This document shows positions 1,592 through 28,623 of a stretch of DNA of 64,000 nt, piece after piece. The stretch lies in the NCBI RefSeq assembly GCF_000427685.1, contig NZ_KE386573.1:744001-808000 (forward strand), given 5' to 3'. The translations under genes and the position numbers were made by a program. This DNA is from Haloplanus natans DSM 17983. Its GTDB lineage: Archaea > Halobacteriota > Halobacteria > Halobacteriales > Haloferacaceae. The notes beneath the pieces are model-generated. The model was not told the DNA's origin and made no database searches. It worked only from the letters and a program-made list of their open reading frames with translations. Positions within the stretch are counted from its first letter, which is position 1. Every line of letters begins with the position of its first letter.

Positions 1592-2080
1592 ATGGAGATA
1601 CTGGTCGCGTGTATGGGGAATCTCCTGCGTGGCGACGATGGATTCGGCGTGGCAGTGGCGGATGCGCTCCGTGACCGGGACTTTCCGGCGTCGGTCGACA
1701 TCGTCGAAGTCGGCATTTCGGGCGTCAGTATGGCACAGGAGTTACTCGACGAATACGACGCATTCGTCCTCGTCGATGCGATGGAAACGGGCGACGACCC
1801 CGGAACGGTCAGTGTCAGTCGGGCGTCGGTTCCGGACATCGACCAGTACTCCGACCGCGAGGTTGCGAGCTTTGCGGCGGACATGCACCAGACCGATCCC
1901 TCGAAGATACTCGTGTTGGGCGAGGCGCTCGGCGTCCTGCCGGACGTCGTCGTCTTGGTCGGGTGTGAGCCGACCGATACCGACGAACTCACCGACCGAT
2001 TGAGCCGTCCCGTCCGCGAGGCGGTGCCGGAGGGCGCCGATCAGGTCGAACGGATCGTCGACGAACTCGTTCGCCAGTGA
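1592..2080 (+). CDS. [NiFe]-hydrogenase maturation endopeptidase (M52/HycI-HyaD family)
   Basis: A 162-aa protein matching the usual size of the family. The N-terminal strand and loop MEILVACMGNLLRGDDGFG is the family signature, with the acidic residue of the DDG motif as first nickel ligand; LVDAM near residue 60 supplies the second Asp, and M-H-Q-T-D around residue 90 the His. Such proteases clip the C-terminal extension from the large subunit after the Ni-Fe(CN)2CO centre is inserted. The substrate is almost certainly the large subunit at 3510-5486, which keeps a 41-residue extension after its last Cys motif. It is read in the same direction as the structural operon but is separated from it by a promoter. 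Confidence 0.9.
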   Translation: MEILVACMGNLLRGDDGFGVAVADALRDRDFPASVDIVEVGISGVSMAQELLDEYDAFVLVDAMETGDDPGTVSVSRASVPDIDQYSDREVASFAADMHQTDPSKILVLGEALGVLPDVVVLVGCEPTDTDELTDRLSRPVREAVPEGADQVERIVDELVRQ

Positions 2081-2110
2081 GCCTGCACTCCGTCTATGCG
2101 GTGGGCCTGC

Positions 2111-2118
2111 ATATTTAA
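2111..2118 (+). promoter_or_regulatory. TATA box of the hydrogenase structural operon
   Basis: The sequence atatttaa lies 27-34 bases upstream of the ATG at 2145, the spacing expected for a leaderless haloarchaeal transcript starting at or next to the start codon. No Shine-Dalgarno-like sequence is present in between. Confidence 0.6.
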
Positions 2119-2144
2119 CACCGTAGAAATATGTATAGGCGTGT

Positions 2145-3272
2145 ATGAGTGCAGGTGGCAAAACACCGGAGGCCGACGCCGCCTCCGAAGCGACGGAATT
2201 CGACGCTATCGACGTATTCTGGCTCCCCGGCGAGGCCTGTGACGGCTGTTCGATATCGACGCTCGGGGCGACGGACCCACCGATCGAGGACCTCCTCCGT
2301 GGCCACGTCCCACATCTGCCACAGATAAACCTTCACCATCACGAACTGGCCGTCGAATCGGGGACCGCGTACGTCGACGGGATGCGAGACGCCGTAGCCG
2401 GCGAACGTGACCCGTACATCGTCGTCGTCGAGGGGAGCGTTCCGAACGAACGTCTCATCGACGGCGACGGCTACTGGGTATCGATGGGGAAAGACGAGCA
2501 GGGCGACCCGGTTAGGACCGTCGACTGGCTCGACCGACTCGCCCCCGGCGCCGCGGCCGTCGTCGCCATCGGAACGTGTGCGACGTGGGGTGGCGTCCCC
2601 GCTGCCCAGGGGAACGTCACGGACGCGATGGGCACGATGGACTATCTGGGTCGGGACTACCGGAGCGAACTGGACCTCCCGGTGATCAACGTGCCCGGCT
2701 GTGCGCCCGTCGGGGACAACTTCATCGAGACGGTCGCCCATCTCCTCTTACACGTCGGCGGGTTCGGGCCACCGCCCGAACTGGACGAACTCGGGCGACC
2801 GACGTGGCTCTTCGGCGAAACCGTCCACCGGAACTGTGAACGCGGGGCCTACTACGAGGAAGGCGACTTCGCCGAGGAGTACGGCAGCGAAAAGTGCCTC
2901 GTCAGCAAGGGATGCTGGGGGCCGACGGTCAAATGTAATATGCCCTCCCGTCGAAACATCGAGGGCGTCGGCGGGTGCATGAACATGGGGGGCAAGTGTA
3001 TCGGCTGTACGATGCCCGGGTTCCCTGATAAGTTCACGCCGTTTTTCAAGAAGCCGCCGGGGTCGAAAGTATCGACCGTCAGCTCCTCGATACTGGGCGG
3101 GATCATGTCCAAACTCCGACGCAAGTCGATGAAGAACCTCGATACGTCGACCCGCTGGGAGAGCCCCGGGATAACCGAGCGGATGTACCAGTGGCAGCTC
3201 AAACGCGGCTCGACCTACGACTCCGACCGCGGACTCGAACGCCGACCCGGCGGGAAGACGGGGGACGACTGA
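2145..3272 (+). CDS. [NiFe] hydrogenase small (electron-transfer) subunit
   Basis: 375 aa. Proximal-cluster ligands are visible as C32-x2-C35 (ACDGCS), C145 (GTCATWGG) and C186 (PGCAPVG). The distal cluster is H228, C231, C251, C257. The medial cluster region has C264, C278, C285 and C288; C278 falls where classical enzymes have the Pro that produces a [3Fe-4S] cluster, so a [4Fe-4S] medial cluster is predicted. There is no twin-arginine signal and no C-terminal membrane anchor, so the enzyme is probably cytoplasmic or held by a partner. It passes electrons from the large subunit (3510-5486) to an acceptor that is not obvious in the window. First gene of an operon, leaderless start. Confidence 0.95.
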   Translation: MSAGGKTPEADAASEATEFDAIDVFWLPGEACDGCSISTLGATDPPIEDLLRGHVPHLPQINLHHHELAVESGTAYVDGMRDAVAGERDPYIVVVEGSVPNERLIDGDGYWVSMGKDEQGDPVRTVDWLDRLAPGAAAVVAIGTCATWGGVPAAQGNVTDAMGTMDYLGRDYRSELDLPVINVPGCAPVGDNFIETVAHLLLHVGGFGPPPELDELGRPTWLFGETVHRNCERGAYYEEGDFAEEYGSEKCLVSKGCWGPTVKCNMPSRRNIEGVGGCMNMGGKCIGCTMPGFPDKFTPFFKKPPGSKVSTVSSSILGGIMSKLRRKSMKNLDTSTRWESPGITERMYQWQLKRGSTYDSDRGLERRPGGKTGDD

Positions 3273-3274
3273 TC

Positions 3275-3508
3275 ATGTGCTTGGACAAGTTCCCGGTCGA
3301 ATTCGACGCCGAGGGGAACGCCCGACTGTCCGACTCCACCGAGGCGGACGGGACGGACTTTCTCGAAGACGTGACCGTGCCCGAGGACGAACTGACTCCC
3401 GAAGAGCGGTTCGGGGCAATCGTCGAGGCGTTGCCGGATCGCGCCGCGCAGCGCTTGCACACCTCGGGTGCCGGTGAGACGGACGAGAGCACACCGCAGA
3501 CACCCTGA
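3275..3508 (+). CDS. 77-aa acidic protein between the hydrogenase subunits
   Basis: ATG two bases after the small-subunit stop, and its own stop is one base before the large-subunit ATG, so it is translationally packed into the operon. It starts MCLDKFPVEFDAEGN and has an acidic middle (FLEDVTVPEDELTPEERF) with a helical segment ERFGAIVEALPDRAAQRL and a Thr/Ser-rich tail. It has a single Cys at position 2, no transmembrane segment and no known fold that I can recall. Position between the two structural genes implies an assembly factor, a small extra subunit or an electron-transfer docking protein; none can be chosen from sequence alone. Confidence 0.75.
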   Translation: MCLDKFPVEFDAEGNARLSDSTEADGTDFLEDVTVPEDELTPEERFGAIVEALPDRAAQRLHTSGAGETDESTPQTP

Positions 3509-3509
3509 T

Positions 3510-5486
3510 ATGTTCGAGCATCTGCCGATAACGCGAGCCGACGACGGATCGTACAGAACGGTCGACGGCGGAACGTTCCGCGTCGACGAGACACACCGCT
3601 CGACCGCCGAGCGGGTCGCCGACATGACCGGCGGGGACGACGCGGTTCATCCCGACGGTGCCGGGCTGCACGAAGCCGACCCGGAGCGCGACGAACAACT
3701 CCACGACATCGACATCGACCCCGTGACGCGGGTCGCCGGCTCGCTCGCGTTCCACGCCAACGTCGACCTGGAGGAGCGGACCGTCCGCGAGGCACACGCC
3801 CAGGCGACGCTGTTCCGGGGCTACGAAATCATTCTCGAGGGCCGCGACCCCCGGGATGCGATCGACCTTTCGAGTCGGGCGTGTGGCGTCTGTGGCGCCG
3901 TCCACTCCATCTGTTCGTCCATGGCACTCGAGATGGCGCTACCGGTCGAACCGCCGCCGATGGGGGTCTGGGCACGGAACATGGGGCAGGCTGCCGCCTT
4001 CCTCTACGACAACTCCCTCCACCTGCATCTGCTGGCGGGCCCGGACTACTCGGCGGCGATGATGGCGGATACGAACCCCGACCTGCTCGCGACGGCTCGG
4101 GAGACGGCGGCGCCCCACGCCGACATTCACGGCTACGAGACGGTCGGCGAGATCATGGAGGGGTTGAACCCGCTCGAGGGCGACCTGTATCTCTCGGCGC
4201 TCGAGAAGACGCGCGACGCCCGCCAGATGGCGTCGCTCATGCTCGGCAAGTACCCACACCCGTCGACCATCGCCCCGGGTGGCGTGACGACGACGCTCTC
4301 GCGGTCCTCGTTCACGCAGTTCTACACCCGCCTCGACGACATGTTCGACTGGGCGAAGCAGGTGGCCTACCTGTGGGACGACCTCATGGACTTCATGCTC
4401 GAAGAGCAGGCCGGATTCGAACACGTCGGCGAACATCCGAAAAACATGATCGGGACCGGCGTCTACGACGATCCCGACGTCTACAACGCCCGGTACGAAG
4501 ACGCCGACGAGTGGGGCAACGCCCGACTCGCGACGCCGGGGGTCGTCGTCGACGGCGAACTGGTGACGACCAACCTGACCGAGATCGATATCGGGATGGA
4601 GGAGTTCGTCGACCACGCCTACTACGAGGACTGGACCGACGAGGCCGTGCCGTTCGAAACGTCTCCGGCCGGCGATCCGCTCAGTCCGTACCACCCGTGG
4701 AACAAGGAAACGCGGCCGAAACCCGACGGCAAGTCCTGGCGGGAACGGTACACGTGGGGTACGGCGCCGCGCTGGGACCGTCACACGATGGAGTGTTGTC
4801 CACACGCCCGTCTGTGGATCACCGCCCTCGCCGAGGAGGTGGACAATCCCTTCATTCGACCGACCGGCGACGGCATCGAGTTCGACCTGCCGGAGGCGGA
4901 CCTCGAAGCGATGACGCTCCGGTGGGACGTTCCGGACCGTCTCAACGCCGCCGAGCGACTCCGTGGGAAAGCCTACGCGCTGGCTCACCACGCGCTCGTG
5001 TGTTATACGGGCTTCATCGAGTCCCTCGAGTTGTTGAAAGGGGGCGAGGATGCCGTCCACACCGAGTTCTCGATCCCGAAGCGCGGCACCCACCGGGGGG
5101 TGGGATTCTGGGAGGCCGGCCGCGGCTTCCTCACCCACCACCTCACCCTCGAGGACGGCCTCATCGACAACTATCAGATCGTTACGCCGAGTACGTGGAA
5201 CTCGTCGCCGACCGGCCCGTTCGGACAGTCCGGACCCTTCGAAGTCGGGGCGATGAACACGCCGATCCTCGAGGACTTCGACGGCGAGGACGACTTCTCG
5301 GCGATCGACATCCTGCGCGGCGTCCGGAGTTTCGATCCGTGTATGCCCTGTACCGTTCACATGTACACGGCCGGCGGGAACGACGTCATCAGCGAGAACG
5401 TGACGATGACGACCTGTGGCTGTTCGACCGGTTCGGACGACAAGCCGGCCGAGGTCACGCTCAGGGAGATGCTCGCCGACGACTGA
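3510..5486 (+). CDS. [NiFe] hydrogenase large (catalytic) subunit
   Basis: 658 aa from the ATG at 3510, directly after the stop of the 77-aa gene. The L1 motif RACGVCGAVH (C125, C128, H132) and the L2 motif DPCMPCTVH (C611, C614, H617) supply the four Cys that hold Ni-Fe. A 41-residue extension follows H617 and contains its own CGC; it should be removed by the protease. Long inserts around residues 200-450 (HPSTIAPGGV, TPGVVVDGELVT, HPWNKETRPKP) resemble, from memory, the group 1h 'actinobacterial' type of respiratory H2-uptake enzymes more than standard group 1a-e enzymes. The first ~65 residues are an acidic haloarchaeal extension. Splits or makes H2; uptake direction is an inference from relatives. 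Confidence 0.95.
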   Translation: MFEHLPITRADDGSYRTVDGGTFRVDETHRSTAERVADMTGGDDAVHPDGAGLHEADPERDEQLHDIDIDPVTRVAGSLAFHANVDLEERTVREAHAQATLFRGYEIILEGRDPRDAIDLSSRACGVCGAVHSICSSMALEMALPVEPPPMGVWARNMGQAAAFLYDNSLHLHLLAGPDYSAAMMADTNPDLLATARETAAPHADIHGYETVGEIMEGLNPLEGDLYLSALEKTRDARQMASLMLGKYPHPSTIAPGGVTTTLSRSSFTQFYTRLDDMFDWAKQVAYLWDDLMDFMLEEQAGFEHVGEHPKNMIGTGVYDDPDVYNARYEDADEWGNARLATPGVVVDGELVTTNLTEIDIGMEEFVDHAYYEDWTDEAVPFETSPAGDPLSPYHPWNKETRPKPDGKSWRERYTWGTAPRWDRHTMECCPHARLWITALAEEVDNPFIRPTGDGIEFDLPEADLEAMTLRWDVPDRLNAAERLRGKAYALAHHALVCYTGFIESLELLKGGEDAVHTEFSIPKRGTHRGVGFWEAGRGFLTHHLTLEDGLIDNYQIVTPSTWNSSPTGPFGQSGPFEVGAMNTPILEDFDGEDDFSAIDILRGVRSFDPCMPCTVHMYTAGGNDVISENVTMTTCGCSTGSDDKPAEVTLREMLADD

Positions 5487-5490
5487 AGAG

Positions 5491-6168
5491 ATGAGTGACA
5501 GCGACGGATCAGGGTCGCTCGACCCACAGTCGGCCGCGGAACGTGGGGATGCAGTCAGCGACCAGCCACGTCCGGGTAGCGGCCACGGTCACAGCAAGGG
5601 CCGGTCGTACGGAACGACGGCCGGCCTGATCGCGGGCGATCGGAGCGCATCGCAGTTGGTCGTCGGCGTCGGGTATCCGTACCTGAGCGATCTGGCGGTT
5701 GGCAACGTCGTCGCGGACCGGCTCGGGAAGTGCCAACTCCCCGACGTCGCCGTTGCGGACTGCAGTCACACACCGATCGCGGCCTACCAGACGATCACGG
5801 TGGGCGAGTACGACACCGTCGTGATCGTCGGCGCCCGCAAGCGGGGCGATGGGCTGAACACCGGCACTCCGTCCGCCGATCCTGGCCGGATACACACGTA
5901 TCCGACGGCCGACGTGCCGGTTCCGGAGGGCGACATCGTCGACCGACTCGCGGAGTGTGCGATGGGGAGTAACACCGTCGAAAACGTCGTGATCACGACG
6001 AAGGCGCTCGGCGAGTTCCCCTCCGAGTCGACCGTTATCGACATCGAACCGGAGTACGATTCGTGGGGGCTCACCGTCGACGAGTTCAGCCCGGCGGTCG
6101 CCGACCGCTTCGACGACCTCCTCGACCGGGTGCTCGACCGTCTCGAACGGGACTACTCCCCGGAGTGA
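5491..6168 (+). CDS. Divergent hydrogenase-maturation-protease-like protein
   Basis: 225 aa, starting 4 bases after the large-subunit stop, so last gene of the structural operon. After a ~45-residue Gly/Ser/His-rich N-terminus, LVVGVGYPYLSDLAVGNVVADRL has the form of the M52 first strand and loop, keeping one Asp. The second ligand site reads VVIVGARKRG, with Gly where active enzymes have Asp, and the His loop is replaced by VVITTKALGEFPSE. It therefore looks like a paralog without the full nickel site and may be a chaperone or scaffold rather than a protease. The genuine protease would be the gene at 1592. Overlaps the next gene on the opposite strand by 16 bases at the 3' ends. Confidence 0.8.
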   Translation: MSDSDGSGSLDPQSAAERGDAVSDQPRPGSGHGHSKGRSYGTTAGLIAGDRSASQLVVGVGYPYLSDLAVGNVVADRLGKCQLPDVAVADCSHTPIAAYQTITVGEYDTVVIVGARKRGDGLNTGTPSADPGRIHTYPTADVPVPEGDIVDRLAECAMGSNTVENVVITTKALGEFPSESTVIDIEPEYDSWGLTVDEFSPAVADRFDDLLDRVLDRLERDYSPE

Positions 6169-6518
6169 CGCGTCCACCCGGCCTTTTGGGCCGCCTCGCT
6201 GAGCGGAAGGAACTCAAGACCGAGCGACCGTGCGGTGCGTCGATCCTCGTCGGACCGGCCGACGAACACGTGACGGTCCGTCGGAAATCGCTGGCGAACG
6301 CTCGCGAGGTCGGCGATCGGGTCCTCGCCGACGAAGTCGACCGCCACGTCTCGACGGTCAAGCGCAGCGAGCAGCGCCTCCGGCGAGCCATCGGCGACGA
6401 CACCGACGTACCGGGTCCAGCGCTTCGCGTCTTCGACCGCCGCGGGCGGGTCCGATAGCTCCGCCAGTGCGGCATCCCGGAAGACGAGCGTCATATCGGT
6501 CGAGCCCTCGGGAGACAT
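6153..6518 (-). CDS. Small conserved-looking haloarchaeal protein, 121 aa
   Basis: ATG at 6518; a second ATG at 6494 (MTLVFRD) may be the true start. The protein is soluble, acidic and alternates helices and strands: AALAELSDPPAAVEDAKRW, RYVGVVADGSPEALLAALDRR, VDFVGEDPIADLASV, HVFVGRSDEDRRTARSLGLEFLPL, which suggests a small alpha/beta domain. I cannot assign a function. It ends inside the 3' end of the protease-like gene and follows the CooC-type ATPase on the same strand, 60 bases away, so it may be co-transcribed with it. Confidence 0.6.
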   Translation of the reverse strand: MSPEGSTDMTLVFRDAALAELSDPPAAVEDAKRWTRYVGVVADGSPEALLAALDRRDVAVDFVGEDPIADLASVRQRFPTDRHVFVGRSDEDRRTARSLGLEFLPLSEAAQKAGWTRHSGE

Positions 6519-6581
6519 GCGTTGGAGTAGCCATACTGTCGTTCGTGGCCTGCGCCGCCTCGTCCCGACCCGCCGACGCCG

Positions 6582-7352
6582 TCAGTCGTGTGTCGACAGG
6601 AGGTCGTCCGCCAGGTCCGCGACCGCGGTGACGGCCGGCGCGTTCGGATCGTAATCGTAGGGCGCGGTCCCCTCCTGGTCGGCCCGTCTCACCGCGTCGT
6701 CGTACGGTACGACCGACGTGATTGTGAGGTCGTTGTTGTCGCAGAACTCCTCGATCGCCGCCCGGTCGTCGTCGTCACGGACTTTGTTCGCGACGACGTT
6801 CACCTCGGGGATGCCGAGTTCCGCTGCCAGGTCGCGGGTGCGCCGACCCGTCTCCAGCGACTTGTAATACGGCTCGACGACGACGAGCAAGGTGTCTACG
6901 TCCTTGGTCGTCCCCCGTCCGAGATGCTCGACGCCGGCGACCATATCCATGACGGTCACTTCGTCGCGGGTCTCGACGACCCCCGAGAGCACCTCCCGGG
7001 CAGTGGAGTGGGCCCGGCACATGCATCCGCTTCCGGCGTGATCGACCTCGCCCATCTTGAGGAGTCGAATCCCGTCCGGCGCCGCCGTCCCGTGCTGCTC
7101 GATGATCTCCTCGGGGGATTTGCTCAGCTCCAGTTCCGTCTCCCCGCTCGGCAACTCGACGCGTTCGAGTAGGTCGTTGGGAACCGGGGGGACGGACTGT
7201 TCGCGTGGCACGCCGACGGTCAGCGAGAGGTTCGGATTCTCGTCGTCGTCGATAGCGAGTACCTCGTACCCCTTCGATGCACAGGCACGCGCGAGCGTCC
7301 CGGAAATCGTCGTTTTTCCGGAGCCACCTTTGCCGGAGACAGCTACCTTCAT
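6582..7352 (-). CDS. CooC-type nickel-insertion ATPase (MinD/SIMIBI family)
   Basis: 256 aa from the ATG at 7352. Residues 1-15 give MKVAVSGKGGSGKTT, the deviant Walker A of the CooC/MinD class. DDDENPNLS near residue 40, the GCMCRAHS motif (Cys-x-Cys, used for nickel or dimer contact in CooC) and VMDMVAGVEHLGRGT follow the CooC order. CooC normally loads Ni into carbon-monoxide dehydrogenase; here the gene lies among hydrogenase genes and no CODH is present, so it may replace HypB as the Ni-insertion GTPase/ATPase. An AT-rich box, 25-36 bases before this ATG, fits a leaderless start here better than the ATG at 7364 or the longer frame to 7460. Confidence 0.88.
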   Translation of the reverse strand: MKVAVSGKGGSGKTTISGTLARACASKGYEVLAIDDDENPNLSLTVGVPREQSVPPVPNDLLERVELPSGETELELSKSPEEIIEQHGTAAPDGIRLLKMGEVDHAGSGCMCRAHSTAREVLSGVVETRDEVTVMDMVAGVEHLGRGTTKDVDTLLVVVEPYYKSLETGRRTRDLAAELGIPEVNVVANKVRDDDDRAAIEEFCDNNDLTITSVVPYDDAVRRADQEGTAPYDYDPNAPAVTAVADLADDLLSTHD

Positions 7353-7376
7353 TAGCTGTGTCATCGCGTTACCATG

Positions 7377-7388
7377 ATAAAAAATATT
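7377..7388 (-). promoter_or_regulatory. TATA-like box of the cooC-type gene
   Basis: On the minus strand the AT-rich aatattttttat lies 25-36 bases before the ATG at 7352, which supports that start and a leaderless mRNA separate from hypE. Confidence 0.45.
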
Positions 7389-7457
7389 CCCCGACTGCGA
7401 GCAACGGGCGGCGAACGGAGCATCCAAACCGGTGTGACTGCGTACGGCGACCCGTCT

Positions 7458-7543
7458 CATACTGTTTATTGTAACTGGTTACCGGTGGGTCGCCAAGACG
7501 GTCCGGCGACCCACCGGTAATGACTTACAATAAACACTATCAG
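7458..7543. repeat. Palindromic ~85-bp repeat, copy 1 (after hypE)
   Basis: A near-perfect inverted repeat: outer arms contain tgtttattgtaa, inner arms ccggtgggtcgcc / ggcgacccaccgg, with a ~10-base loop aagacggtcc. It starts at the hypE stop codon (minus strand TGA followed by TAGTGTTTATTG) and ends in TATGAGAC. Other full copies are at 37203 and 40497 and a half copy is at 24635. It could act as a transcription terminator between hypE and the cooC-type gene. Confidence 0.9.
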
Positions 7544-8577
7544 CAGATCCGTGGTGCTGGTTCGGTCGCCGGTTCGCGCAGGTATCGCGTCCCCAGCCCC
7601 GTATCGAGGAGGACACGCCCGTGTTCGTCGTCGATGGCCTTTCCGATGGCTGCGGCGTCTTCGCCGTCGGGATGGGAGCGGAGCGCCGCGAGTACGTCCG
7701 CCGCCGCCGTCGGCCTGACGCCGAGGAGTGCGATACCCTCGTTTGCGATCTGAAGCGGGTTCAGGCCGAGCATTTCGCTGGCACCTTTCACCTCCGGGGG
7801 GACGGGAATCCGGTCCTGTCTGAGTTCGATCCCGACGCCGCTTTTCCTCGCCATCTCGCTCGCGGCGCCGGCCAGTCCCATCCGCGTCGGATCTTTCATC
7901 GCCGTCACAGCCGCCCCAGCGACCGACAACGCACGGTCGACAACGCCGTTTACGGGCCGTACGTCCGACTCCACCGTCGTCCCGAACTCGATCCCCTCAC
8001 GCTCCGCGAGCAGTGCGACGCCGTGGCGCCCGACCTCGCCGGTACTTACGAGCACGTCGTCCGGAGCGAGGCCGTCGTCGCCGACGACGTGGTCGGCCAC
8101 GCCGACGCCGGTCGTGGTAACCACGATACCGTCGAGGTCGCCGTGACCCATCACTTTGGTATCGCCGGTGACGATTGCGGCGTCGGCCTCGCGGCACGCC
8201 TGCGCCATCGAGTCCGCGATCCGTCCGAGATCCGATTCGGGGTATCCGGCCTCGACGACGACGGCACTCGAGAGCGCTCGGACGTCCGTCGCGCCCATGA
8301 CTGCGAGGTCGTTGACGGTCCCCGAGACGGCGAGCCGGCCGATGTCCCCGCCGGGAAAAAACGGCGGGTGGACCACGTGACTGTCCGTCGTGAAGACCGC
8401 GTTTCGGTCGCCGATCGGCACGACGGCGCCGTCGTCCATCGCCTCGCGTCCGACCTCGAGGGAGTCGTCGGGGAACCCGGCGGTGAGAATCCCCGACACG
8501 AGGTCGCGCATGGCTTTGCCGCCGGCCCCCTGTTCGAGCGTCACGACCGCGTCGGATTCGAAGCCCCCGTCGGTCAT
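7540..8577 (-). CDS. hypE: HypE, carbamoyl dehydratase of cyanide-ligand synthesis
   Basis: 345 aa, the normal HypE length. N-terminal AIRS-like region with GAGGKAMRDLV and the conserved AVFTTDSHVVHPPFFPGGDIGRLAVSGTVNDLAVMGA block; GDTKVM is the ATP-site motif; the protein ends in P-R-I-C, the C-terminal Cys that HypF carbamoylates and HypE dehydrates to thiocyanate before transfer to the HypC-HypD complex. The start codon overlaps the hypD stop as ATGA, and the stop codon is the first base triplet of the palindromic repeat. Third gene of the hypC-hypD-hypE operon. Confidence 0.97.
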   Translation of the reverse strand: MTDGGFESDAVVTLEQGAGGKAMRDLVSGILTAGFPDDSLEVGREAMDDGAVVPIGDRNAVFTTDSHVVHPPFFPGGDIGRLAVSGTVNDLAVMGATDVRALSSAVVVEAGYPESDLGRIADSMAQACREADAAIVTGDTKVMGHGDLDGIVVTTTGVGVADHVVGDDGLAPDDVLVSTGEVGRHGVALLAEREGIEFGTTVESDVRPVNGVVDRALSVAGAAVTAMKDPTRMGLAGAASEMARKSGVGIELRQDRIPVPPEVKGASEMLGLNPLQIANEGIALLGVRPTAAADVLAALRSHPDGEDAAAIGKAIDDEHGRVLLDTGLGTRYLREPATEPAPRIC

Positions 8578-9740
8578 AGATCGGGGCGCCCGCCGTACTC
8601 GTGCCAGATCTTACAGGTTCCTTCGCTCGAAACCATACACGCGCCGACGGGGTCTTCGGGGGTGCACTCCTCGCCGAACATATCGCAGTCGGTCGGGTCG
8701 GCACGCCCGGCCATGATGTCGCCGCAGATACAGTCGTCCACGAGCGACGAGCCGCCCGCAGCGAGTGACGTGGTGTCTATCTCGAACCGCTCGCGCGCGT
8801 TAACGTGTGCGTATTCGTCCCGCAAGACGAGATTGGCGTCGGGGATGTGTGCGATCCCACGCCACTCGCCGCTCTCGGTCGTGAAGACGTTCCACAGCTG
8901 TTTCTGTGCGGGTTCGTTGCCCTGCTCGGTGACACACCGCGGGTAGGCGTTCCGAACCGTCACGTCCCCGTCACGGATGTCTCGCAACAGCACGACCAAG
9001 CCCGCGAGAACGTCGAGCGGTTCGAATCCACCCACGGTGATCGGCGTGTTCGTCTCGTCGACGAGTTCCTCGAACAGCCCCCAGCCGGTGATCGTGGCCG
9101 CGTTCCCGGCCGCGAGGAACCCGTCGACGTCGGTTTCGGGCATCGCAGCCACGACCTCCATGGCGGGCGGGACGTACTTGTGGGCGCTCAGAACCCAGAA
9201 GTTCTCCGGCGGATCGTCCCTGACGATCGCCGCGGTCGGCGCCGCAGTCGTCTCGAACCCCGTCGCGAAAAAGACCACGTCGCCGTCCGTCTCCTCGGCG
9301 ATGTCGACCGCTTCGGCGGCACTGTAGACCACCCGGACGTCCGCACCCGCTGCCCGGGCATCGCTCAACGAGACGGACGTCCCGGGGACGTGGAGCATGT
9401 CGCCGTAGGTCGTGATGGTGTGGCCGGCGTTCGCCAGCGCGACTGCCTCGTCGACCTCGGGCATGTCAGTTACACAGACCGGACAGCCCGGCCCCATACG
9501 AAGATCGAGTCCCTCGGGGAGCATGCTTCGGAGGCCGAACTTGGCGATAGACTGCTCGTGGCTGCCACAGACGTGCATGACGCTGACCTCGTCCGCATCG
9601 ATGTCCGCGACGAGTTCCTCGGCTCGCTCGGCCAGCGCGTCCGCCTTCTCGGGATCACGGAATTCGAGCGCGTTCTCGCCGTCGCTCGGGCCCGCCACGC
9701 CACCGGTCGGCCCCCCGGGAACGGGCTCACGATCAGACAT
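8574..9740 (-). CDS. hypD: HypD, iron-sulfur scaffold for Fe(CN)2CO assembly
   Basis: 388 aa from the ATG at 9740. Hallmarks are MHVCGSHEQSI, MGPGCPVCVT, TYGDMLHVPGT, FFATGFETTAA, SAHKYVPPAME and the C-terminal Cys group CICGDIMAG...C, which in HypD holds a [4Fe-4S] cluster and the redox thiols that carry the Fe(CN)2CO unit. Overlaps hypC by 8 bases and hypE by 4, so the three are translationally coupled. The first ~30 residues are an acidic extension. Works with HypC in the cytoplasm. Confidence 0.97.
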   Translation of the reverse strand: MSDREPVPGGPTGGVAGPSDGENALEFRDPEKADALAERAEELVADIDADEVSVMHVCGSHEQSIAKFGLRSMLPEGLDLRMGPGCPVCVTDMPEVDEAVALANAGHTITTYGDMLHVPGTSVSLSDARAAGADVRVVYSAAEAVDIAEETDGDVVFFATGFETTAAPTAAIVRDDPPENFWVLSAHKYVPPAMEVVAAMPETDVDGFLAAGNAATITGWGLFEELVDETNTPITVGGFEPLDVLAGLVVLLRDIRDGDVTVRNAYPRCVTEQGNEPAQKQLWNVFTTESGEWRGIAHIPDANLVLRDEYAHVNARERFEIDTTSLAAGGSSLVDDCICGDIMAGRADPTDCDMFGEECTPEDPVGACMVSSEGTCKIWHEYGGRPDL

Positions 9741-10107
9741 CGATATCGAGCTCCTCGAGTAGGTCCTCGGCGTCCTCCGCGTCGGCGGGCTCGACCCCGT
9801 CGTCCGCCGGGGGTGCACTCGACTCCGCAGGCGTCGAGCCGGCCGCTTCGACCTCGTCGATGAGATCCTCCCGGAGCATATCGTCCGGCCCGCCACCCAT
9901 CATCGATTCGTAGAGGGTCAGCGTCTCGTCGATCTCCGACTCGGGAATCCGACGGATCGCGAACCCGACGTGGTTGAGGATGTAGTCGCCGGGTTCGACC
10001 GGTTCGTCTACCGTGTCGAGCCGGACCTCCTTTTCGACGCCCCAGAAGTCGACGTCGGCGGTGAGACCGTCTACCTGCGTGACCTGTCCGGGAACTCCGA
10101 GACACAT
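9733..10107 (-). CDS. hypC: HypC, hydrogenase maturation chaperone
   Basis: 124 aa. The start MCLGVPG puts the essential Cys at position 2, as in all HypC/HybG proteins, and the TATA box lies 26-33 bases upstream, so the ATG at 10107 is preferred to the ATG at 10119. The core (GQVTQVDG, DVDFWGVEKEVRLD, GDYILNHVGFAI) covers residues 1-75; the remaining ~45 residues form an acidic, Ala/Asp/Glu-rich tail that is longer than usual. HypC shuttles the iron centre from HypD to the large-subunit precursor. Confidence 0.96.
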   Translation of the reverse strand: MCLGVPGQVTQVDGLTADVDFWGVEKEVRLDTVDEPVEPGDYILNHVGFAIRRIPESEIDETLTLYESMMGGGPDDMLREDLIDEVEAAGSTPAESSAPPADDGVEPADAEDAEDLLEELDIDV

Positions 10108-10132
10108 CGTTACTGACAACTAGTCACACATT

Positions 10133-10140
10133 CATTTATA
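10133..10140. promoter_or_regulatory. Shared TATA region of hypC (-) and hypF (+)
   Basis: The eight bases catttata read as TATAAATG on the minus strand, 26-33 bases before the hypC ATG, and as TTTATA on the plus strand, 25-30 bases before the hypF ATG. Both genes can thus be transcribed leaderless from overlapping, oppositely oriented boxes in a 57-base spacer. Confidence 0.6.
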
Positions 10141-10164
10141 CCTTCGCGTCCCCAGAATCCGGCG

Positions 10165-12525
10165 ATGAAACGCGCTCACGTTCAAGTAGACGGCGTCGTC
10201 CAGAGCGTCGGATTCCGACCGTTCGTCTACCGCACTGCAGTCGATATCGGACTGCGGGGCCGCGTGCGCAATCTCGGTGACGCCGGCGTCAGCGTGACAC
10301 TCGAAGGTCCCGGTGAGCGGATCGACGCCTTCCTCCGGGAGCTCGAGGCGAACCCCCCACCGCTCGCCACGGTCGATACGGTCGCCGTCGACACCGAACC
10401 CGTCACCGAGTACCGCTACGAGTCGTTTTCGATCGCGGACTCCGACGACCGGGGCGCCGGTGGGGGGACCGTCCCCCCGGACACGGCCGTCTGTGAGGCC
10501 TGTTTAGCTGACATCCGGGATCCGTCGTCGCGGTTTCACGACTACTGGGCGACGGCCTGCGTGGACTGTGGTCCGCGGTTCACCGTGATCGAGGGGTTGC
10601 CCTACGACCGCGAGACGACGTCGATGGCGGCGTTCCCGCTCTGTGCGGACTGTGCCGACGCGTACGCCTCCCCTACGGACCGACGGTACCACGCCCAGGC
10701 CATTGCCTGTCCGTCCTGTGGTCCGGCGCTGGCGTTCCAGCCGCACGATCGGAGTACGGACCCCCCGGCTGTCGGCGACCGGACGGGCGTCGACCCGCTC
10801 CCACAGCGACCGTCGCTCGTCGAGGGCGACGGCCGGTCTCTCGACGCCGCGACCCGGACACTCGAGGACGGCGGGATCGTCGCCATCAAAGGCATCGGCG
10901 GCGCGCACCTCGCCTGTGACGCGACCCGTCCGGACGCCGTCGCGACGCTTCGAGACCGAACTGGGCGGCCGGCGAAACCGTTCGCCGTCATGGTCCCGTC
11001 GATGGATCACGTCACGGCGGTGGCGTCCGCCTCGTCGGCCGAACGCGAGTGGCTTCGATCCGGCCGCCGACCCATCGTCGTCCTCGACCGGCGTGGGGAC
11101 GCCCTCGCCTCGAACCTCGCACCCGGACTCCACACCGTCGGTGTCATGCTGCCGTATAGCGGCGTCCACCACCTCCTGTTCGAGCGCTTCGACGAACCGA
11201 TCGTCGTGACGTCGGCCAACCGTCCGGGGTTGCCGATGCAGTCCTCGAACCAAGCGATTCTCGAACAGCTGTGGGACGTGGCAGACGGGTCGCTCCTCCA
11301 CACTCGCCGGATCGTACAGCGGTGTGACGACTCGGTCGTCAGATCCGTCGGCGGGAGTCGGACGCTGCTCAGGCGGTCGCGCGGATACGTCCCGCTACCC
11401 GTTGCAGCCCCGACAGCCGACGACGCGGACGTTCTCGCCGTCGGGCCGGAGCGCGACGTCACCGCGGCCGTGCTCTCCGGCGACGAGTGTTATCTCACAC
11501 AGCATATCGGGGCCGTGACCGACCGCGAAACGTTCCGGTTTCTGGAGGCGGCGATCGATCACTTGCTCGCACTCACGGGCACACAGCGTCCGTCGGTCGT
11601 CGCCCACGACGCGCATCCGTCGTTTCGAACCACGGCGTACGCGGCCGACCGCGTCTCGGACCGGACCGTCGCCGTCCAGCATCATCACGCCCACGCCGCA
11701 AGCGTGCTCATGGAGCACGACTGCCCACGCGCGGTGTGTATCACGGCCGACGGCGTCGGGTACGGGCCGGACGGAACCGTCTGGGGAGGCGACGTTCTCG
11801 ACGCGACGCTCACCGACGCGGATCGGGTGGCCGGGCTCGCTCCCGTCCCGATGCCCGGGGGCGACCGGGCGACCGAGTTTCCCGTCCGGTCGCTCGTTGG
11901 CCTCCTGTGGGACCGCGAGGGCGTCGACGTCGGGTCACTCGCCGACACCCTCGACTGGCCGACCCCGAACGCGGACGAGTTGCGCGTCGTCAGACAGCAA
12001 CTCGCCGCCGACGTCAACACGCCCGTGACGACCAGCGCCGGTCGGTTTCTGGACGCCATCGCCGCACTCGCCGAGGTCTGTCACGAACGGACGTACGAGG
12101 GCGAACCCGCGATGTGTCTCGAGGCGGCTGCGACCGACGGCACGCCTCGCGACGTCACGGTACCCTACACCACGGCGGACGGACGGCCGGTCGTCGACAC
12201 GCCGCGGGTGGCCGAACTGCTCGTGGAACTGCGGCGGGACGGCACGGACGCGACGGACGTGGCCGCAACCGCGCAGCGGGTACTCGCCGACGGCTTGGCG
12301 GAACTGGCCGTCGACGCCGCCGCCGAGCGCGGCATCGACGCCGTCGGATTCACCGGCGGGGTGGCGTACAACGACGCGATCAGTCGGCGCATCCGGCGAC
12401 GGGTCCGGGACGCCGGCCTCGCGTATCTGGCAAACGAGGCCGTCCCACCCGGCGATGGAGGGGTCGCGTACGGACAGGCCGGCGTAGCGGCCGCGACGGT
12501 TCGAGCCGACGACGCCGACTCGTGA
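10165..12525 (+). CDS. hypF: HypF, carbamoyltransferase
   Basis: 786 aa with the full domain order: acylphosphatase-like residues 1-95 (QVDGVVQSVGFRPFVY), two zinc fingers (C-x2-C ... C-x2-C around 110-200: CEACLAD, CVDCGPRF, CADCADAY, CPSCGP), a YrdC-like domain (~215-400; GGIVAIKGIGGAHLACD, KPFAVMV) and a Kae1/HypF C-terminal domain with HHHAHAASVLMEH and GFTGGVAYN. It makes carbamoyl-adenylate and loads the HypE C-terminal Cys. Divergent from hypC across a shared TATA region. Confidence 0.97.
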   Translation: MKRAHVQVDGVVQSVGFRPFVYRTAVDIGLRGRVRNLGDAGVSVTLEGPGERIDAFLRELEANPPPLATVDTVAVDTEPVTEYRYESFSIADSDDRGAGGGTVPPDTAVCEACLADIRDPSSRFHDYWATACVDCGPRFTVIEGLPYDRETTSMAAFPLCADCADAYASPTDRRYHAQAIACPSCGPALAFQPHDRSTDPPAVGDRTGVDPLPQRPSLVEGDGRSLDAATRTLEDGGIVAIKGIGGAHLACDATRPDAVATLRDRTGRPAKPFAVMVPSMDHVTAVASASSAEREWLRSGRRPIVVLDRRGDALASNLAPGLHTVGVMLPYSGVHHLLFERFDEPIVVTSANRPGLPMQSSNQAILEQLWDVADGSLLHTRRIVQRCDDSVVRSVGGSRTLLRRSRGYVPLPVAAPTADDADVLAVGPERDVTAAVLSGDECYLTQHIGAVTDRETFRFLEAAIDHLLALTGTQRPSVVAHDAHPSFRTTAYAADRVSDRTVAVQHHHAHAASVLMEHDCPRAVCITADGVGYGPDGTVWGGDVLDATLTDADRVAGLAPVPMPGGDRATEFPVRSLVGLLWDREGVDVGSLADTLDWPTPNADELRVVRQQLAADVNTPVTTSAGRFLDAIAALAEVCHERTYEGEPAMCLEAAATDGTPRDVTVPYTTADGRPVVDTPRVAELLVELRRDGTDATDVAATAQRVLADGLAELAVDAAAERGIDAVGFTGGVAYNDAISRRIRRRVRDAGLAYLANEAVPPGDGGVAYGQAGVAAATVRADDADS

Positions 12526-16675: not shown

Positions 16676-16716
16676 GTCGGCGACCGACTTTTCACCCGGG
16701 CACTGTACGCTTGGAT

Positions 16717-17088: not shown

Positions 17089-17129
17089 CTCCCCGTCCGA
17101 CGGCGCAGCACTTCGCTGGCAGACGACAC

Positions 17130-18724: not shown

Positions 18725-18738
18725 CGGAGTACGGGCCG

Positions 18739-20018: not shown

Positions 20019-20084
20019 GTCAGAGTTATATCAATTGACACTCCCTTGATACCATACGCCGGGACCACACGTTGGTGATGGGTC

Positions 20085-21266
20085 ATGCTTGACACACGAA
20101 CTTCGGACGGCGAGAACGCTCGCGTATCACGACGGAGGGTGATTGGACTTCTCGGGGCAGGGAGTGTCGCCGGGCTCGCCGGATGTATCGGCACGAATCG
20201 CGGCGACGGCACAGCCACCGGAACCGCCAGCACGGGTGCTGGCGGACAGGGGTCCTCGGGAACGAGGACCGTTACCGACTTGCTCGGTCGAGACGTCGAA
20301 GTCCCCGGGACGGTCGAACGAGTCGTTTGTCTCGAATCGTCGACGCTTCGAGAGATCTGTCACATGAACGCGGCCGATTTGGTCGTCGGCGTCGAGAAAC
20401 GCGAGCAGGAATGGGCCCGAGAAATCCCGTACAATATCGCACATCCCCGGTTTCAGGAGCTCCCCGTCATCGGCCCACGGGGTGGCGACCCCGAACTGGT
20501 CGCCCAGCAGGACCCTGACGTCATCTTCATGGTTGCCTCGACGGAGCCGGTGCGGACGATGCAACAGCAAACCGGCATTCCAGTCGTCGGCATCCCCGGC
20601 GGGGACCTCGAGAACCAGCGCACGACGCTCTACGAGTCGTGGCGGGTCATCGGGCGTGTCCTCGACAAGCAGGAGCGGGCCGAATCGCTCATAACGTACA
20701 CCGACGACATCGTCGCCGATTTCGACGACCGAACGGCAGACGCCCCGAACAACGGCACGCGGGACGTGATAGTCAGCGGAGTGAACTTCCGTGGTCCGGG
20801 GACCTTCACCACGATTCTCCTCCCGTATCCGCCCCTCAAGTGGCTCAACACGAAGTCGGTCGCCCACGGGGCGTTCCCCGACACCTTCGAGCGCGGGGAG
20901 TACAACGGCGTGACGGTCAGCGACGAGAAGTTCCTCGAGTGGGATCCCGAACGCCTCTTTTTAGACCTCGCGAACCTCGAACTCGCGACACAGACGCTCC
21001 AGAAGAACCCGGAGTTCGAAGGCCTGAGCGCGATTCGGAACGGGCAGGTGTACGGGCTCCACCCGTTCAACCAGTACAACAACAACCTGACCTGTACGCT
21101 CGCGAACGGCTACTATCTGGGGAGTGTGCTGTATCCCGACCGGTTCTCGGACGTCTCGATCGAGGAGAAGGCAAACGAAATCTACGACACCTACCTGGGT
21201 GCGCCCGTATACGATCAGGTGGCGGACATCTTCGGTGGCTACGAAACGTACGATCTGACGGGGTAA
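20085..21266 (+). CDS. FecB/BtuF-type substrate-binding lipoprotein
   Basis: 393 aa. SRRRVIGLLGAGSVAGLAGC is a Tat signal with lipobox Cys, then a Gly/Thr-rich linker, then the class III binding-protein fold: TVTDLLGRDVEVPGTVERVVCLESSTLREICHM, PELVAQQDPDVIFMVAS, GIPVVGIPGG. Family members bind ferric siderophores, cobalamin, haem or other metal chelates. First gene of the four-gene unit 20085-24198. Confidence 0.92.
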   Translation: MLDTRTSDGENARVSRRRVIGLLGAGSVAGLAGCIGTNRGDGTATGTASTGAGGQGSSGTRTVTDLLGRDVEVPGTVERVVCLESSTLREICHMNAADLVVGVEKREQEWAREIPYNIAHPRFQELPVIGPRGGDPELVAQQDPDVIFMVASTEPVRTMQQQTGIPVVGIPGGDLENQRTTLYESWRVIGRVLDKQERAESLITYTDDIVADFDDRTADAPNNGTRDVIVSGVNFRGPGTFTTILLPYPPLKWLNTKSVAHGAFPDTFERGEYNGVTVSDEKFLEWDPERLFLDLANLELATQTLQKNPEFEGLSAIRNGQVYGLHPFNQYNNNLTCTLANGYYLGSVLYPDRFSDVSIEEKANEIYDTYLGAPVYDQVADIFGGYETYDLTG

Positions 21267-21275
21267 CGGAAAACC

Positions 21276-22358
21276 GTGGCCACAGACACCACCGTCTCCG
21301 AGTACGAACGGTTCGTCCACCGGAAGGTCATCTTCGGCGCCGTCACGGGCGTCCTCTTGATCGGCGGTGCCCTGTTCTCGATCAGCGTCGGCGCGGTCGA
21401 GATACCCGTCTCGGAGGCGCTCGCGACCCTCTTGGGCGCCAATACGGGGCTTTCCAACAGGATCATCTGGCGGATTCGGGTCCCGCGCGTCCTGACTGCG
21501 ATCTTCGCCGGGCTTGCACTGGCGGTTTCGGGCGCCGTCATGCAGAAGGTGTTGAACAACCCCCTCGGCTCGCCGTTCACGCTCGGCATCTCACAGGCCG
21601 CTGCGTTCGGTGCCGCGTTCGCGATCATCGTCGTCGGCGCGGGAACCATCGGCATCGGCGGCACCGTCGGGAGTGGCACCGGCGGCGCCGTCTCCGTCAC
21701 CAATCCGTATCTCATCGCGACGAGTGCGTTCTCGTTTTCGATGATCTCGGCGGGCGTCATCCTGGCGCTGGCGACATACACCAGAGCCACGCCGGAGACG
21801 ATGATCCTTACCGGCGTTGCCCTCGGGTCGTTGTTCTCCGCGGCCCTCTCGGGGTTGCAGTATCTCGCGGCTCCCGACGAACTCTCGGCGCTCGTCTACT
21901 GGACGTTCGGTGACGTCGGCGGGACGACGTGGCAGGGCGTCGGCATCATCGCGACCGTCGCCGTCCTCTCGATGGCGTATTTCATCTACAACAGCTGGAA
22001 CTACAACGTGTTATCGTCGGGCGACGAGACCGCGGAGAGTCTCGGCGTCGACGTCGAGGCGCTCAGGATGCGCGGGATGCTTATCGCCTCCTTCGCCACG
22101 GCCGTCGTCACGGCGTTCACCGGCATCATCGGCTTCGTCGGCCTCGTCGTTCCCCACATCGTTCGCAAGACCATCGGCGGTGACGACCGGTTCGTCATCC
22201 CCTTCTCGTGTGCCGTCGGGAGCGTCCTCTTGCTCCTGTCGGACACCGTCGCCCGGACGCTCTTCTCGCCGATGGTCCTGCCGGTCGGTATCCTCACCTC
22301 GTTTCTCGGCGCACCGCTTTTCATCTACCTCGTCCTCACCGCGAGGGAGTACTGGTGA
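21276..22358 (+). CDS. FecCD/BtuC-type ABC permease
   Basis: 360 aa from a GTG at 21276. About ten hydrophobic helices and the FecCD signatures RVPRVLTAIFAGLALAVSGAVMQKVLNNPLGSPFTLGISQAAAFGA and GIIGFVGLVVPHIVRKTIGGDDRFVIPFSCAVGS with SFLGAPLFIYLV. Forms the channel for the ligand delivered by the 20085 lipoprotein. Overlaps the ATPase start as GTGA. Confidence 0.95.
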   Translation: MATDTTVSEYERFVHRKVIFGAVTGVLLIGGALFSISVGAVEIPVSEALATLLGANTGLSNRIIWRIRVPRVLTAIFAGLALAVSGAVMQKVLNNPLGSPFTLGISQAAAFGAAFAIIVVGAGTIGIGGTVGSGTGGAVSVTNPYLIATSAFSFSMISAGVILALATYTRATPETMILTGVALGSLFSAALSGLQYLAAPDELSALVYWTFGDVGGTTWQGVGIIATVAVLSMAYFIYNSWNYNVLSSGDETAESLGVDVEALRMRGMLIASFATAVVTAFTGIIGFVGLVVPHIVRKTIGGDDRFVIPFSCAVGSVLLLLSDTVARTLFSPMVLPVGILTSFLGAPLFIYLVLTAREYW

Positions 22359-23179
22359 ACCTCGATATCGACGGCCTCGCGTTCGACTACTCCGACCACC
22401 CGGTCCTTCGTGAGATCGACCTGACCGTCAGCGATGGCGAGATGCTCGGCCTCATCGGTCCGAACGGGACGGGCAAAAGTACGCTGATCAAATGCATCAA
22501 CCACGTTCTCTCCCCGGACGCCGGGGCAGTGTTGGTTGACGCGACCGACATCGGGTCGCTGACGCGTAACGACGTGGCAAAGACCATGGGGTACGTCTCC
22601 CAGCGCGAGAACGAGACGTACTCCGCGACCGTCTTCGATACGGTACTCATGGGGCGAAAGCCCTACATCAACTGGCAGCCCGGCTCCGACGACCTCGAAA
22701 CCGTCTCGGGGATCCTGGCGAAACTGGGGCTGTCGGATCTCTCGTTGCGGAAGATGAACACCCTGAGCGGCGGCCAGAGACAGAAAGTGATGGTCGGCCG
22801 CGCGCTCGCACAGGACCCGAACGTCCTGTTGCTCGACGAACCGACGAGTGACCTCGACATTCGCCACCAACTCGAAGTGATGGACGTGATTCGTGAGGAA
22901 ATCGACCGCGGCTTGGCCGGTGTACTGGCCATTCACGACCTCAATCTGGCGGCGCGCTACTGTGACACTGTCGCGATGCTGAAAACGGGCGGCGTCTACA
23001 CCACCGGCACTCCCGAGGAAGTGTTCACGCCGTCCAATCTCGAGGCGGTGTTCGGCGTCCGAGCGAGCACGGAGCGCCACAACGGTGCGTACGTCATCAT
23101 CCCCGAGGAACCGGCCGGCGATGCGTCGGGGGAGGGCTCCTCCGATTCGACGACTGCGATCACCGATACGGACCAATGA
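22355..23179 (+). CDS. FecE/BtuD-type ABC ATPase
   Basis: 274 aa from the GTG at 22355, overlapping the permease stop. Walker A GPNGTGKST, Q-loop VSQRENETY, signature LSGGQRQKVMVGRALAQ, Walker B VLLLDEPTSDLD, H-loop AIHDLNLAARYCD. The last ~30 residues are an acidic Ser/Asp-rich tail. Overlaps the downstream TrmO-FmdE fusion as ATGA, so transporter and fusion are translationally coupled. Confidence 0.95.
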   Translation: MNLDIDGLAFDYSDHPVLREIDLTVSDGEMLGLIGPNGTGKSTLIKCINHVLSPDAGAVLVDATDIGSLTRNDVAKTMGYVSQRENETYSATVFDTVLMGRKPYINWQPGSDDLETVSGILAKLGLSDLSLRKMNTLSGGQRQKVMVGRALAQDPNVLLLDEPTSDLDIRHQLEVMDVIREEIDRGLAGVLAIHDLNLAARYCDTVAMLKTGGVYTTGTPEEVFTPSNLEAVFGVRASTERHNGAYVIIPEEPAGDASGEGSSDSTTAITDTDQ

Positions 23180-24198
23180 CAGCGACGTTCACTCAGATTG
23201 GCACGATACGTAGCGACTTCGACGACCCCGGCGATCCCGACGAGATGCGCCGTCACGAGAGCACTATCGTCGTCGAGCACGCGTACGAGGACGGGCTGTA
23301 CCGTATCGAGCGCAACGACCACATCGTCGTCCTGTTCCACATCGACGAGTCCGACGGCTACACGCTGAAATCGCCGCGTCGATACGGGATGGAACGGGGG
23401 ACGTTCGCGTGCCGGAGCCCCCACCGCCCGACCCCGATCGGACTGACGGTCGTCGAGCTACTCGACCGCGACGGACGCGAACTCCGCGTCCGGGGACTGG
23501 ACGCCATCGACGGCACGCCGGTCCTCGACATCAAGCCCCACTCGCCGGGGCTTGACTGTCCGTCGCGAGTCGCGGACGACGACCGTCGCGAGGCGCCCCG
23601 AGGCCGCGTGGATCGGTTCGTCCGCGCCGGTGATCGGGAGTCGCTGTTGCTGGGGGCCGCCGAGACACACGGTCACTTCTGTCCATCCCTCGCGCTCGGC
23701 GTGATGGCCGGCGTCCGTGCCCGGCGCGAACTCGGTGCCCTCGCCGAGGGCAGCGAGGACCTCGTGGCGGTGGTCGAGACGAACGACTGCTTTGCCGACG
23801 CCGTCCAGTACGTCACCGGCTGTACGTTCGGCAACGGCGCACTCGTCTATCGCGACTACGGCAAGACTGCCGTCACGGTGGCGGAACGGGGCGCGCCCGG
23901 CGTCCGGATCACCGTCGAGGACCGGGCGGCGGTCCGGGAGCGACGCCCGGACGACGCGTTCGCCCTCATCGGGCGTCCACTCCAGGAGTTCTGCGCGGTC
24001 GAGACCGGCGTCGAGGTCGACGTTCCCGCGTCCGCGCCCACGCACGACTACGTGACCTGTGCCGACTGTGGCGAATCGGTCGTGGCTTCGAAGGCCGTCG
24101 ACCGGGACGGAGACGCGGTGTGTATCCCGTGTGCTGGGGCCGAGTACCCGCAACTCGACGGCCGAGGACTCCACTCCTCGACCCCGCAGATGGAGTAG
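23176..24198 (+). CDS. TrmO-FmdE fusion protein with C-terminal zinc ribbon
   Basis: 340 aa. Residues 1-130 are a TrmO-like domain (FTQIGTIRSDF, SPRRYGMERGTFACRSPHRPTPIGLTVVELL, RVRGLDAIDGTPVLDIKPHSP). Residues ~150-290 are an FmdE domain: ETHGHFCPSLALGVMAGVRARRELG and ETNDCFADAVQYVTGCTFGNG carry the His/Cys metal-binding pattern. The end has a ribbon C-x2-C (CADCGES) and C-x2-C (CIPCAG). FmdE-domain proteins occur beside molybdenum/tungsten enzymes and metal transporters, but their biochemistry is poorly known. Coupling to a FecBCD transporter suggests processing of an imported metal chelate or cofactor. Confidence 0.9.
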   Translation: MTATFTQIGTIRSDFDDPGDPDEMRRHESTIVVEHAYEDGLYRIERNDHIVVLFHIDESDGYTLKSPRRYGMERGTFACRSPHRPTPIGLTVVELLDRDGRELRVRGLDAIDGTPVLDIKPHSPGLDCPSRVADDDRREAPRGRVDRFVRAGDRESLLLGAAETHGHFCPSLALGVMAGVRARRELGALAEGSEDLVAVVETNDCFADAVQYVTGCTFGNGALVYRDYGKTAVTVAERGAPGVRITVEDRAAVRERRPDDAFALIGRPLQEFCAVETGVEVDVPASAPTHDYVTCADCGESVVASKAVDRDGDAVCIPCAGAEYPQLDGRGLHSSTPQME

Positions 24199-28264: not shown

Positions 28265-28623
28265 TCGTGGGTGCCTCCAGGCGGAGCCATCCTCCGCCTG
28301 CCCGCCTACTGCTAGGCACCACACCCGGTTAATTAACGGGCAGTTTGCCGCGCTAATCCGTCGTTAACGCGGGTTTCAGCCGTATTCCCGTCGTCGAGAC
28401 TCAACACGGAGATGCGTTGCTGTCGCTGGGAGCAACACGAGACCGAGGCGTACGGACGGGCCCTATGTTTAGCTGAAAGAGAGGGCGCTAAGCCCCTTTC
28501 CTCAAGGAGCGAACGGAACGAAGTGGAGTGAGCGAGTAGGGAGGGGATACAGCGCCCGCACCAGTTGCAAACACCCAATCAACACCATTAATGCACTTTA
28601 TTCCGTACAATTTGACACGTCGT
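28265..28623. other. Spacer: promoter of the surface protein and left end of a tnpB element
   Basis: Bases 28300-28345 are AT-rich (gttaattaacggg) and likely contain the promoter of the minus-strand surface protein. Bases 28440-28590 (ctaagcccctttcctcaaggagcg ... gagggga) have imperfect hairpins typical of the left end of IS200/605-type elements. No other gene seen. Confidence 0.4.

Follow-up and report, generated by a model that had tools for sequence, protein, structure and literature searches.

What does a protein that joins a TrmO-like, S-adenosylmethionine (SAM)-binding domain to an FmdE domain contribute when it is encoded as the last gene of an ABC importer operon? This question is raised by an operon of the haloarchaeon Haloplanus natans DSM 17983, which runs in the order fecB-fecCD-fecE-fusion, with the fusion as gene four, and lies in the window, that is, the whole stretch of 64,000 nucleotides that was analysed (Table 1). 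We consider it likely that the operon is a nickel uptake system and that the fusion is its cytosolic partner.

Table 1. Positions of the operon and of related features in the window.
Feature	Positions	Strand	Remarks
NiFe hydrogenase cluster	1592..12525		maturation protease, small and large subunits, HypE, HypD, HypF
CooC-like ATPase in hydrogenase cluster	6582-7460		CMC motif
Inverted repeat TATCAA-N11-TTGATA	20029..20051		perfect; 33 bp upstream of fecB start
FecB-type substrate-binding lipoprotein	20085..21266	+	Pfam Peripla_BP_2; twin-arginine/lipobox signal
FecCD-type permease	21276..22358	+	Pfam FecCD, 294.5 bits
FecE/BtuD-type ATPase	22355..23179	+	Pfam ABC_tran; GTG start overlaps permease stop (GTGA)
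TrmO-FmdE-zinc-ribbon fusion	23176..24198	+	340 aa; ATG overlaps ATPase stop (ATGA)
TrmO_N domain	23227..23556	+	residues 18-127; SAM-site motifs RSPHRPTPIG and GLDAIDGTPVLDIKP retained
FmdE core	23668..23919	+	residues 165-248; predicted metal ligands H165, H167, C169, C205
Zinc ribbon / treble clef	24058..24132	+	C295, C298, C316, C319

The preliminary description of this locus had recognised a protein of 340 residues composed of TrmO, FmdE and zinc-ribbon parts, and had seen permease, ATPase and fusion chained by overlapping codons. Both observations are borne out: TrmO_N scores 102.5 bits (Pfam cut-off 26.8) and FmdE 105.7 bits (cut-off 22.9), four cysteines mark the ribbon, and the DNA reads GTGA at 22355-22358 as permease stop and ATPase start and ATGA at 23176-23179 as ATPase stop and fusion start. 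The first half of the fusion also exceeds the cut-off of the NCBIfam equivalog TIGR00104 (tRNA_TsaA/TrmO; 101.7 bits vs 93.25) and aligns with the AF0241 structure 2nv4 (E 9e-26), an entry that is a complex with SAM. The second half carries HGHFCP at residues 165-170 and CFADAVQYVTGCT at 205-217. An alignment of 24 sequences shows no variation at H165, H167, C169 or C205, and the ribbon cysteines C295/C298 and C316/C319 are nearly invariant across 24 relatives; the identity of the metal ligands is taken by homology from the FmdE structure 2glz (PMC2954224). From these established families, the motifs of which are conserved here, we infer that the fusion binds both SAM and metal.

The importer itself is of the FecBCD type, with binding protein, FecCD permease and ATPase sharing one operon; the best NCBIfam models for the ATPase and the permease are of the BtuD/BtuC type, and all fall below cut-off. 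The closest solved structure to the lipoprotein in PDB sequence searches is 2etv (E 2e-58), which we take to come from TM0189-TM0191, on which nothing was found in the literature; more distant matches include HI_1472 (3psa), and none of the entries matched in these searches bears the name NiuB. Comparison of the binding protein with 17 homologues revealed an invariant R89, as would suit a complex of negative charge; in the window, the usual GxGALR motif and Tyr93 are changed. The inverted repeat sits between divergent tauA-like and fecB genes, and only 0.33 window matches to it are expected even when up to two mismatches are allowed; it is possibly an operator shared by the two divergent genes, and its geometry differs from that of the E. 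coli NikR operator. Assignment of the repeat to NikR is not supported, as no palindrome was common to the loci and no match was present near the nikR genes of this genome.

The window also contains a stand-alone TrmO-like gene (16286-16675) beside another importer. After it come a Cys-rich regulator of the HxlR type (16717-17088) and an ABC ATPase of the Tau/Ssu type (17130-17882), facing a permease and an NMT1-like binding protein on the minus strand (17879-19782). Its product groups with importer- or FmdE-linked TrmO proteins of Caldanaerobacter and Peptococcaceae (97/89 in the TrmO tree). Region 16286-19782, which the preliminary description of the fusion does not mention, is a further importer accompanied by a TrmO protein. 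Elsewhere in the window, TnpB/OrfB-like transposon-type ORFs were recognised by eye (28591-29913, 39200-39883 and 45582-46883), and 31437-33152 encodes a PQQ-type alcohol dehydrogenase-like protein, which scores 393 bits in a subfamily model with an NCBIfam cut-off of 480 bits.

Whether importer and fusion form one system, as had been proposed, or whether the fusion occurs mostly without transporters was addressed by a survey of gene neighbourhoods, which strongly supports the former. A FecBCD- or NikABC-type importer adjoins 24 of 26 distinct fusion genes, comprising 23 FecBCD cases (including G811 and G422, where the binding protein alone was found) and one nikABC case. The two exceptions are a fusion that stands alone (G310) and one that follows nikR and has tungstate-type TupA genes downstream (L239). 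Strong FmdE matches were present in 5 of 293 Halobacteriales genomes, among them Halorhabdus salina and H. amylolytica, and in all five the match is a fusion that stands fourth in fecB-fecCD-fecE-fusion; as the same order is also found in unrelated phyla, it goes beyond chance. The fusion further occurs in Bipolaricaulota, Spirochaetales, Archaeoglobi, methanogens, one Methanomicrobia MAG, the phylum of Caldanaerobacter and, within Bacteroidota, in Marinilabilia, Natronoflexus, Geofilum and Sanguibacteroides, although a scan of 345 genomes to enlarge the Bacteroidota sample yielded only two full fusions. Its presence in several bacterial phyla rules out an invention specific to haloarchaea.

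Separate genes behave similarly. Adjacent trmO and fmdE genes come after fecBCD in Caldanaerobacter and after nikABC in L240 and L242, and 29 of the 38 FmdE-ribbon genes of an archaeal phylum have FecBCD or NikA-type genes within 6 kb. NikABC-type operons contain fmdE, trmO-fmdE or the fusion in L082, L238, L240, L242 and L249. Neighbouring ORFs were called mechanically, so that some of the counts miss genes, for example fecCD in L061, and no FmdE was called in L246, L250 and L253-L255. Among named loci of the same scan, fecCD lies within 5 kb of 10 of 13 fusions (the other three being contig ends or an ORF-calling miss) but of only 2 of 39 stand-alone TrmO loci (Fisher p 1e-6). This difference bears on the idea of an ordinary t6A tRNA methyltransferase in the TrmO half, which would be linked to FmdE so that translation is tuned to metal supply. 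The TIGR00104 score and the retained SAM motifs would suit such an enzyme, but fused copies track importers, which unfused copies mostly do not, and the genome possesses two TrmO genes besides the fusion (one of which, as judged by eye, adjoins a dph2-like gene); we therefore regard this idea as very improbable.

Some further neighbours are recurrent. In methanogens, a protein of ~1360 residues that by eye resembles a CoA-dehydratase activase precedes PadR-TrmO-FmdE-methyltransferase (L074, 3814-7893; L160, 2718-6794; L218, 9552-13661), and genes for a damage-control phosphatase (ARMT1-like/DUF89) recur close to the fusion in both Spirochaetales and Halorhabdus (L065, 9036-9923; L061, 13192-14013).

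In a tree built from a short alignment of TrmO domains, the fusion sequences are spread over more than one lineage. A single origin was rejected both when all fusions were placed in one clade (p-AU 2e-12, a value probably inflated by the renewed splitting of genes) and when clade A was united with Archaeoglobi (p-AU 0.018, for groups named after inspection of the tree). Fusion or renewed fusion of TrmO and FmdE beside importers has therefore probably happened more than once.

The genes that surround the fusion point to nickel, which is probably the cargo. A nickel marker lies within ~12 kb in 15 of 26 fusion loci, and such linkage extends across the relatives. In six loci (L067, L068, L070, L073, L028 and L239), nikR is adjacent: four Marinilabiliales loci have nikR immediately upstream of fecB, nikR and the fusion touch tail to tail in Halorhabdus amylolytica (L028), and only 11 bp separate nikR from the fusion in L239. 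The last locus, which was retrieved to test the nickel idea once this had been formed, has the order larE-larB-larC1-larC2-nikR-fusion, and its NikR, LarB, LarC1, LarC2 and LarE all exceed their NCBIfam cut-offs; LarB, LarC and LarE synthesise the nickel-pincer cofactor (PMC11796402). Three further Halobacteriales (G195, G198 and G003) have nikR 10-12 kb from the fusion, and in G003 it stands directly upstream of CbiM/NikM (L163, 11034-12655), ~10 kb from the fusion operon, forming a local nickel island. Other loci contain the F430 genes cfbE-cfbD-cfbB-cfbC downstream of the fusion (L064; CfbD above cut-off, the rest below), a NiFe hydrogenase (L063) or a CooC-like ATPase (L071) by the fusion, the order fusion-nikA-nikB-nikC-ATPase (L238), or CbiQ upstream of the fusion (L237). 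In Poribacteria (L082), an FmdE without TrmO lies in nikR-TonB receptor-fmdE-SBP_bac_5.

Two of these indications call for caution. For one NikR homologue of a methanogen, a role as zinc regulator has been suggested (PMC3087415), so that adjacency to nikR is not proof of nickel cargo. Likewise, the metal site of 2glz (His15/His17/Cys19/Cys55) contained Zn and Ni at 2.6:1 (PMC2954224), but a nickel resin was used in purification and may be the source of the metal; this nickel is suggestive only.

The hydrogenase cluster of the window, which had been placed 11 kb from the fusion, ends with hypF 10.65 kb upstream of it. All five fusion-bearing Halobacteriales encode a NiFe hydrogenase family protein, as against 31 of 293 genomes overall; the association gives p 1e-5 by genome and p 0.009 by genus, three of the five fusion genomes belonging to one genus. 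No nikR is present in the window (C7:744001-808000), and the nikR genes of the genome are located at C7:152603 and C1:422304.

From the candidate cargoes listed in the preliminary description, these recurring markers favour nickel and lend little support to molybdenum, tungsten, cobalt or corrinoids. FmdE genes bear the name of formylmethanofuran dehydrogenase even where that pathway is absent. The name would suggest a system serving molybdenum or tungsten, as would the occurrence of fmdE within formylmethanofuran dehydrogenase operons of methanogens (PMC2954224), the distant match of the binding protein to HI_1472 and the TupA-type genes of L239. Apart from TupA in L239, however, molybdenum or tungsten markers are rare in the neighbourhoods, and the 25 Pfam families found most often in 122 neighbours include no molybdenum or tungsten family; NikR, Lar, Cfb, hydrogenase and NikABC genes recur in the loci instead. 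Nor do formylmethanofuran dehydrogenase genes, by which FmdE was historically defined, belong to the recurrent neighbours, their place being taken by importers. A molybdenum or tungsten system is thus most unlikely. A cargo of cobalt or corrinoid, with the fusion as a cobalt or corrinoid factor, is also improbable: the BtuD/BtuC-type best models, the ability of NiuBDE to carry cobalt too (PMC5140060) and the CbiM/CbiQ-type genes of G003 and L237, which cannot tell nickel from cobalt, are compatible with it, but the markers that do discriminate (NikR, LarB/C/E, CfbD, NiFe hydrogenase and CooC-like ATPase) indicate nickel.

The assignment to nickel is surer for the family than for the window copy, for which no nikR lies in the window, the FmdE is shortened and the binding protein has diverged. 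The shortening goes unmentioned in the preliminary description. This FmdE matches profile positions 2-85 of 133, whereas relatives match 1-132 (Pfam), because ~31 residues are missing in frame at ~23920-23970 in comparison with four close relatives; the core domain is accordingly incomplete. AlphaFold nevertheless models the remaining core with confidence (mean pLDDT 81, mostly about 80-96), and the copy may therefore be altered rather than dead. Among the fusion-bearing haloarchaea, identity to the window genes is 56-58% for the fusion, 51-55% for the permease and 47-51% for the ATPase, but only 34-35% for the lipoprotein, which suggests that the specificity of the binding protein may have drifted. 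Together, the missing residues and the divergent binding protein indicate that the window copy may have shifted in function. In a related genome, that of a sixth member of Halobacteriales (G075), fecB-fecCD-fecE is followed by TrmO alone, and the FmdE part is lost altogether.

On present sequence evidence, the best reading of the fusion is that of a cytosolic accessory of nickel uptake, probably in chelate form, which probably receives or frees the metal in the cytosol. The FecB-type lipoprotein would capture a nickel complex outside the cell and the FecCD/FecE transporter would carry it inward, where TrmO-FmdE, made together with the ATPase, would receive the metal. The FmdE core would bind nickel at H165/H167/C169/C205, and a partner would dock at the zinc ribbon. 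SAM would be bound by the TrmO half, which, as we guess, would transfer a methyl group to the organic ligand, such that the metal is freed and handed to users, a putative consumer being the NiFe hydrogenase 10.6 kb away. The ligand-release chemistry and the hand-over to hydrogenase are steps that we purely infer. We prefer this mechanism of chelate import, capture by FmdE and SAM-dependent release because of the metal site of FmdE, the SAM-bound TrmO homologue and the recurring methyltransferases. Nonetheless, its specific form, in which TrmO methylates the chelator of an imported nickelophore with SAM and FmdE captures Ni(II), is put forward only tentatively. The main rival is a sensor or regulator, in which FmdE would sense metal and TrmO would sense SAM to gate the transporter or transcription. 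This rival owes its position to the PadR regulators of methanogens, which adjoin TrmO/FmdE genes or share a single reading frame with FmdE (L207/L047); moreover, metal-ion sensing has been suggested for zinc-finger members of the FmdE family (PMC2954224), and a passage of PMC11237513 reports FmdE-regulator fusions from Methanosaeta. Yet no DNA-binding domain is recognised in the TrmO-FmdE fusion, and SAM-dependent class I methyltransferases, which make up 11 of the 122 neighbours, suggest methyl chemistry; we judge a sensing role to be rather doubtful.

The supply of nickel is limiting for hydrogenase, CO dehydrogenase and methyl-coenzyme M reductase, and the system therefore bears on methane and hydrogen metabolism. 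If the nickel reading is correct, it would provide a function for the FmdE family, which is widespread in anaerobes, and would make the release of nickel from organic chelates after import directly testable. If nickelophore release is also correct, the fusion would be the nickel counterpart of siderophore esterases and reductases, common to archaea and bacteria and serving FecBCD- and NikABC-type importers alike. A further consequence would be an archaeal type of nickel importer beyond the three Ni/Co transporters (Nik/CbiMNQO, NikABCDE and NiCoT) listed for archaea in a 2009 survey (PMC2667541).

The initial statement that no function had been described for this fusion was right in substance, although the architecture itself had been noted: an FmdE core fused to UPF0066/PF01980 was listed in 2010 (PMC2954224), and FmdE-tRNA methyltransferase fusions of Methanosarcinales and Archaeoglobales were reported in 2024 (PMC11237513). 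Our search, which covered mainly the open-access literature, yielded no paper that ties FmdE to nickel or importers. With the FmdE family (PF02663; 2gvi, 2glz and 3d00), the fusion shares the alpha+beta core, the HGHxC...C metal site and the C-terminal treble clef, but it adjoins nickel-type importers, and the window copy lacks part of the core. With TrmO/YaeB/TsaA (PF01980, TIGR00104; AF0241 2nv4 and P. aeruginosa 7btu), it shares the TrmO_N fold and the SAM-site motifs, but here this domain is fused to FmdE, linked to an importer and additional to other TrmO genes. Helicobacter pylori NiuBDE, a FecBCD-type nickel importer (PMC5140060), is the precedent for the importer of the window, although it has no described TrmO-FmdE partner and the likeness is one of importer type, with NiuB only a possible orthologue of the binding protein; NikABCDE and Nik/CbiMNQO, in contrast, are nickel importers of types other than the FecBCD type found in the window. 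The fusions of the 2024 report have the same architecture and are read there as possible regulators of the Fmd complex, in a passage that is silent on importer and nickel context. Set beside these systems, the operon of the window would encode an ABC importer for metal whose cytosolic partner is new.
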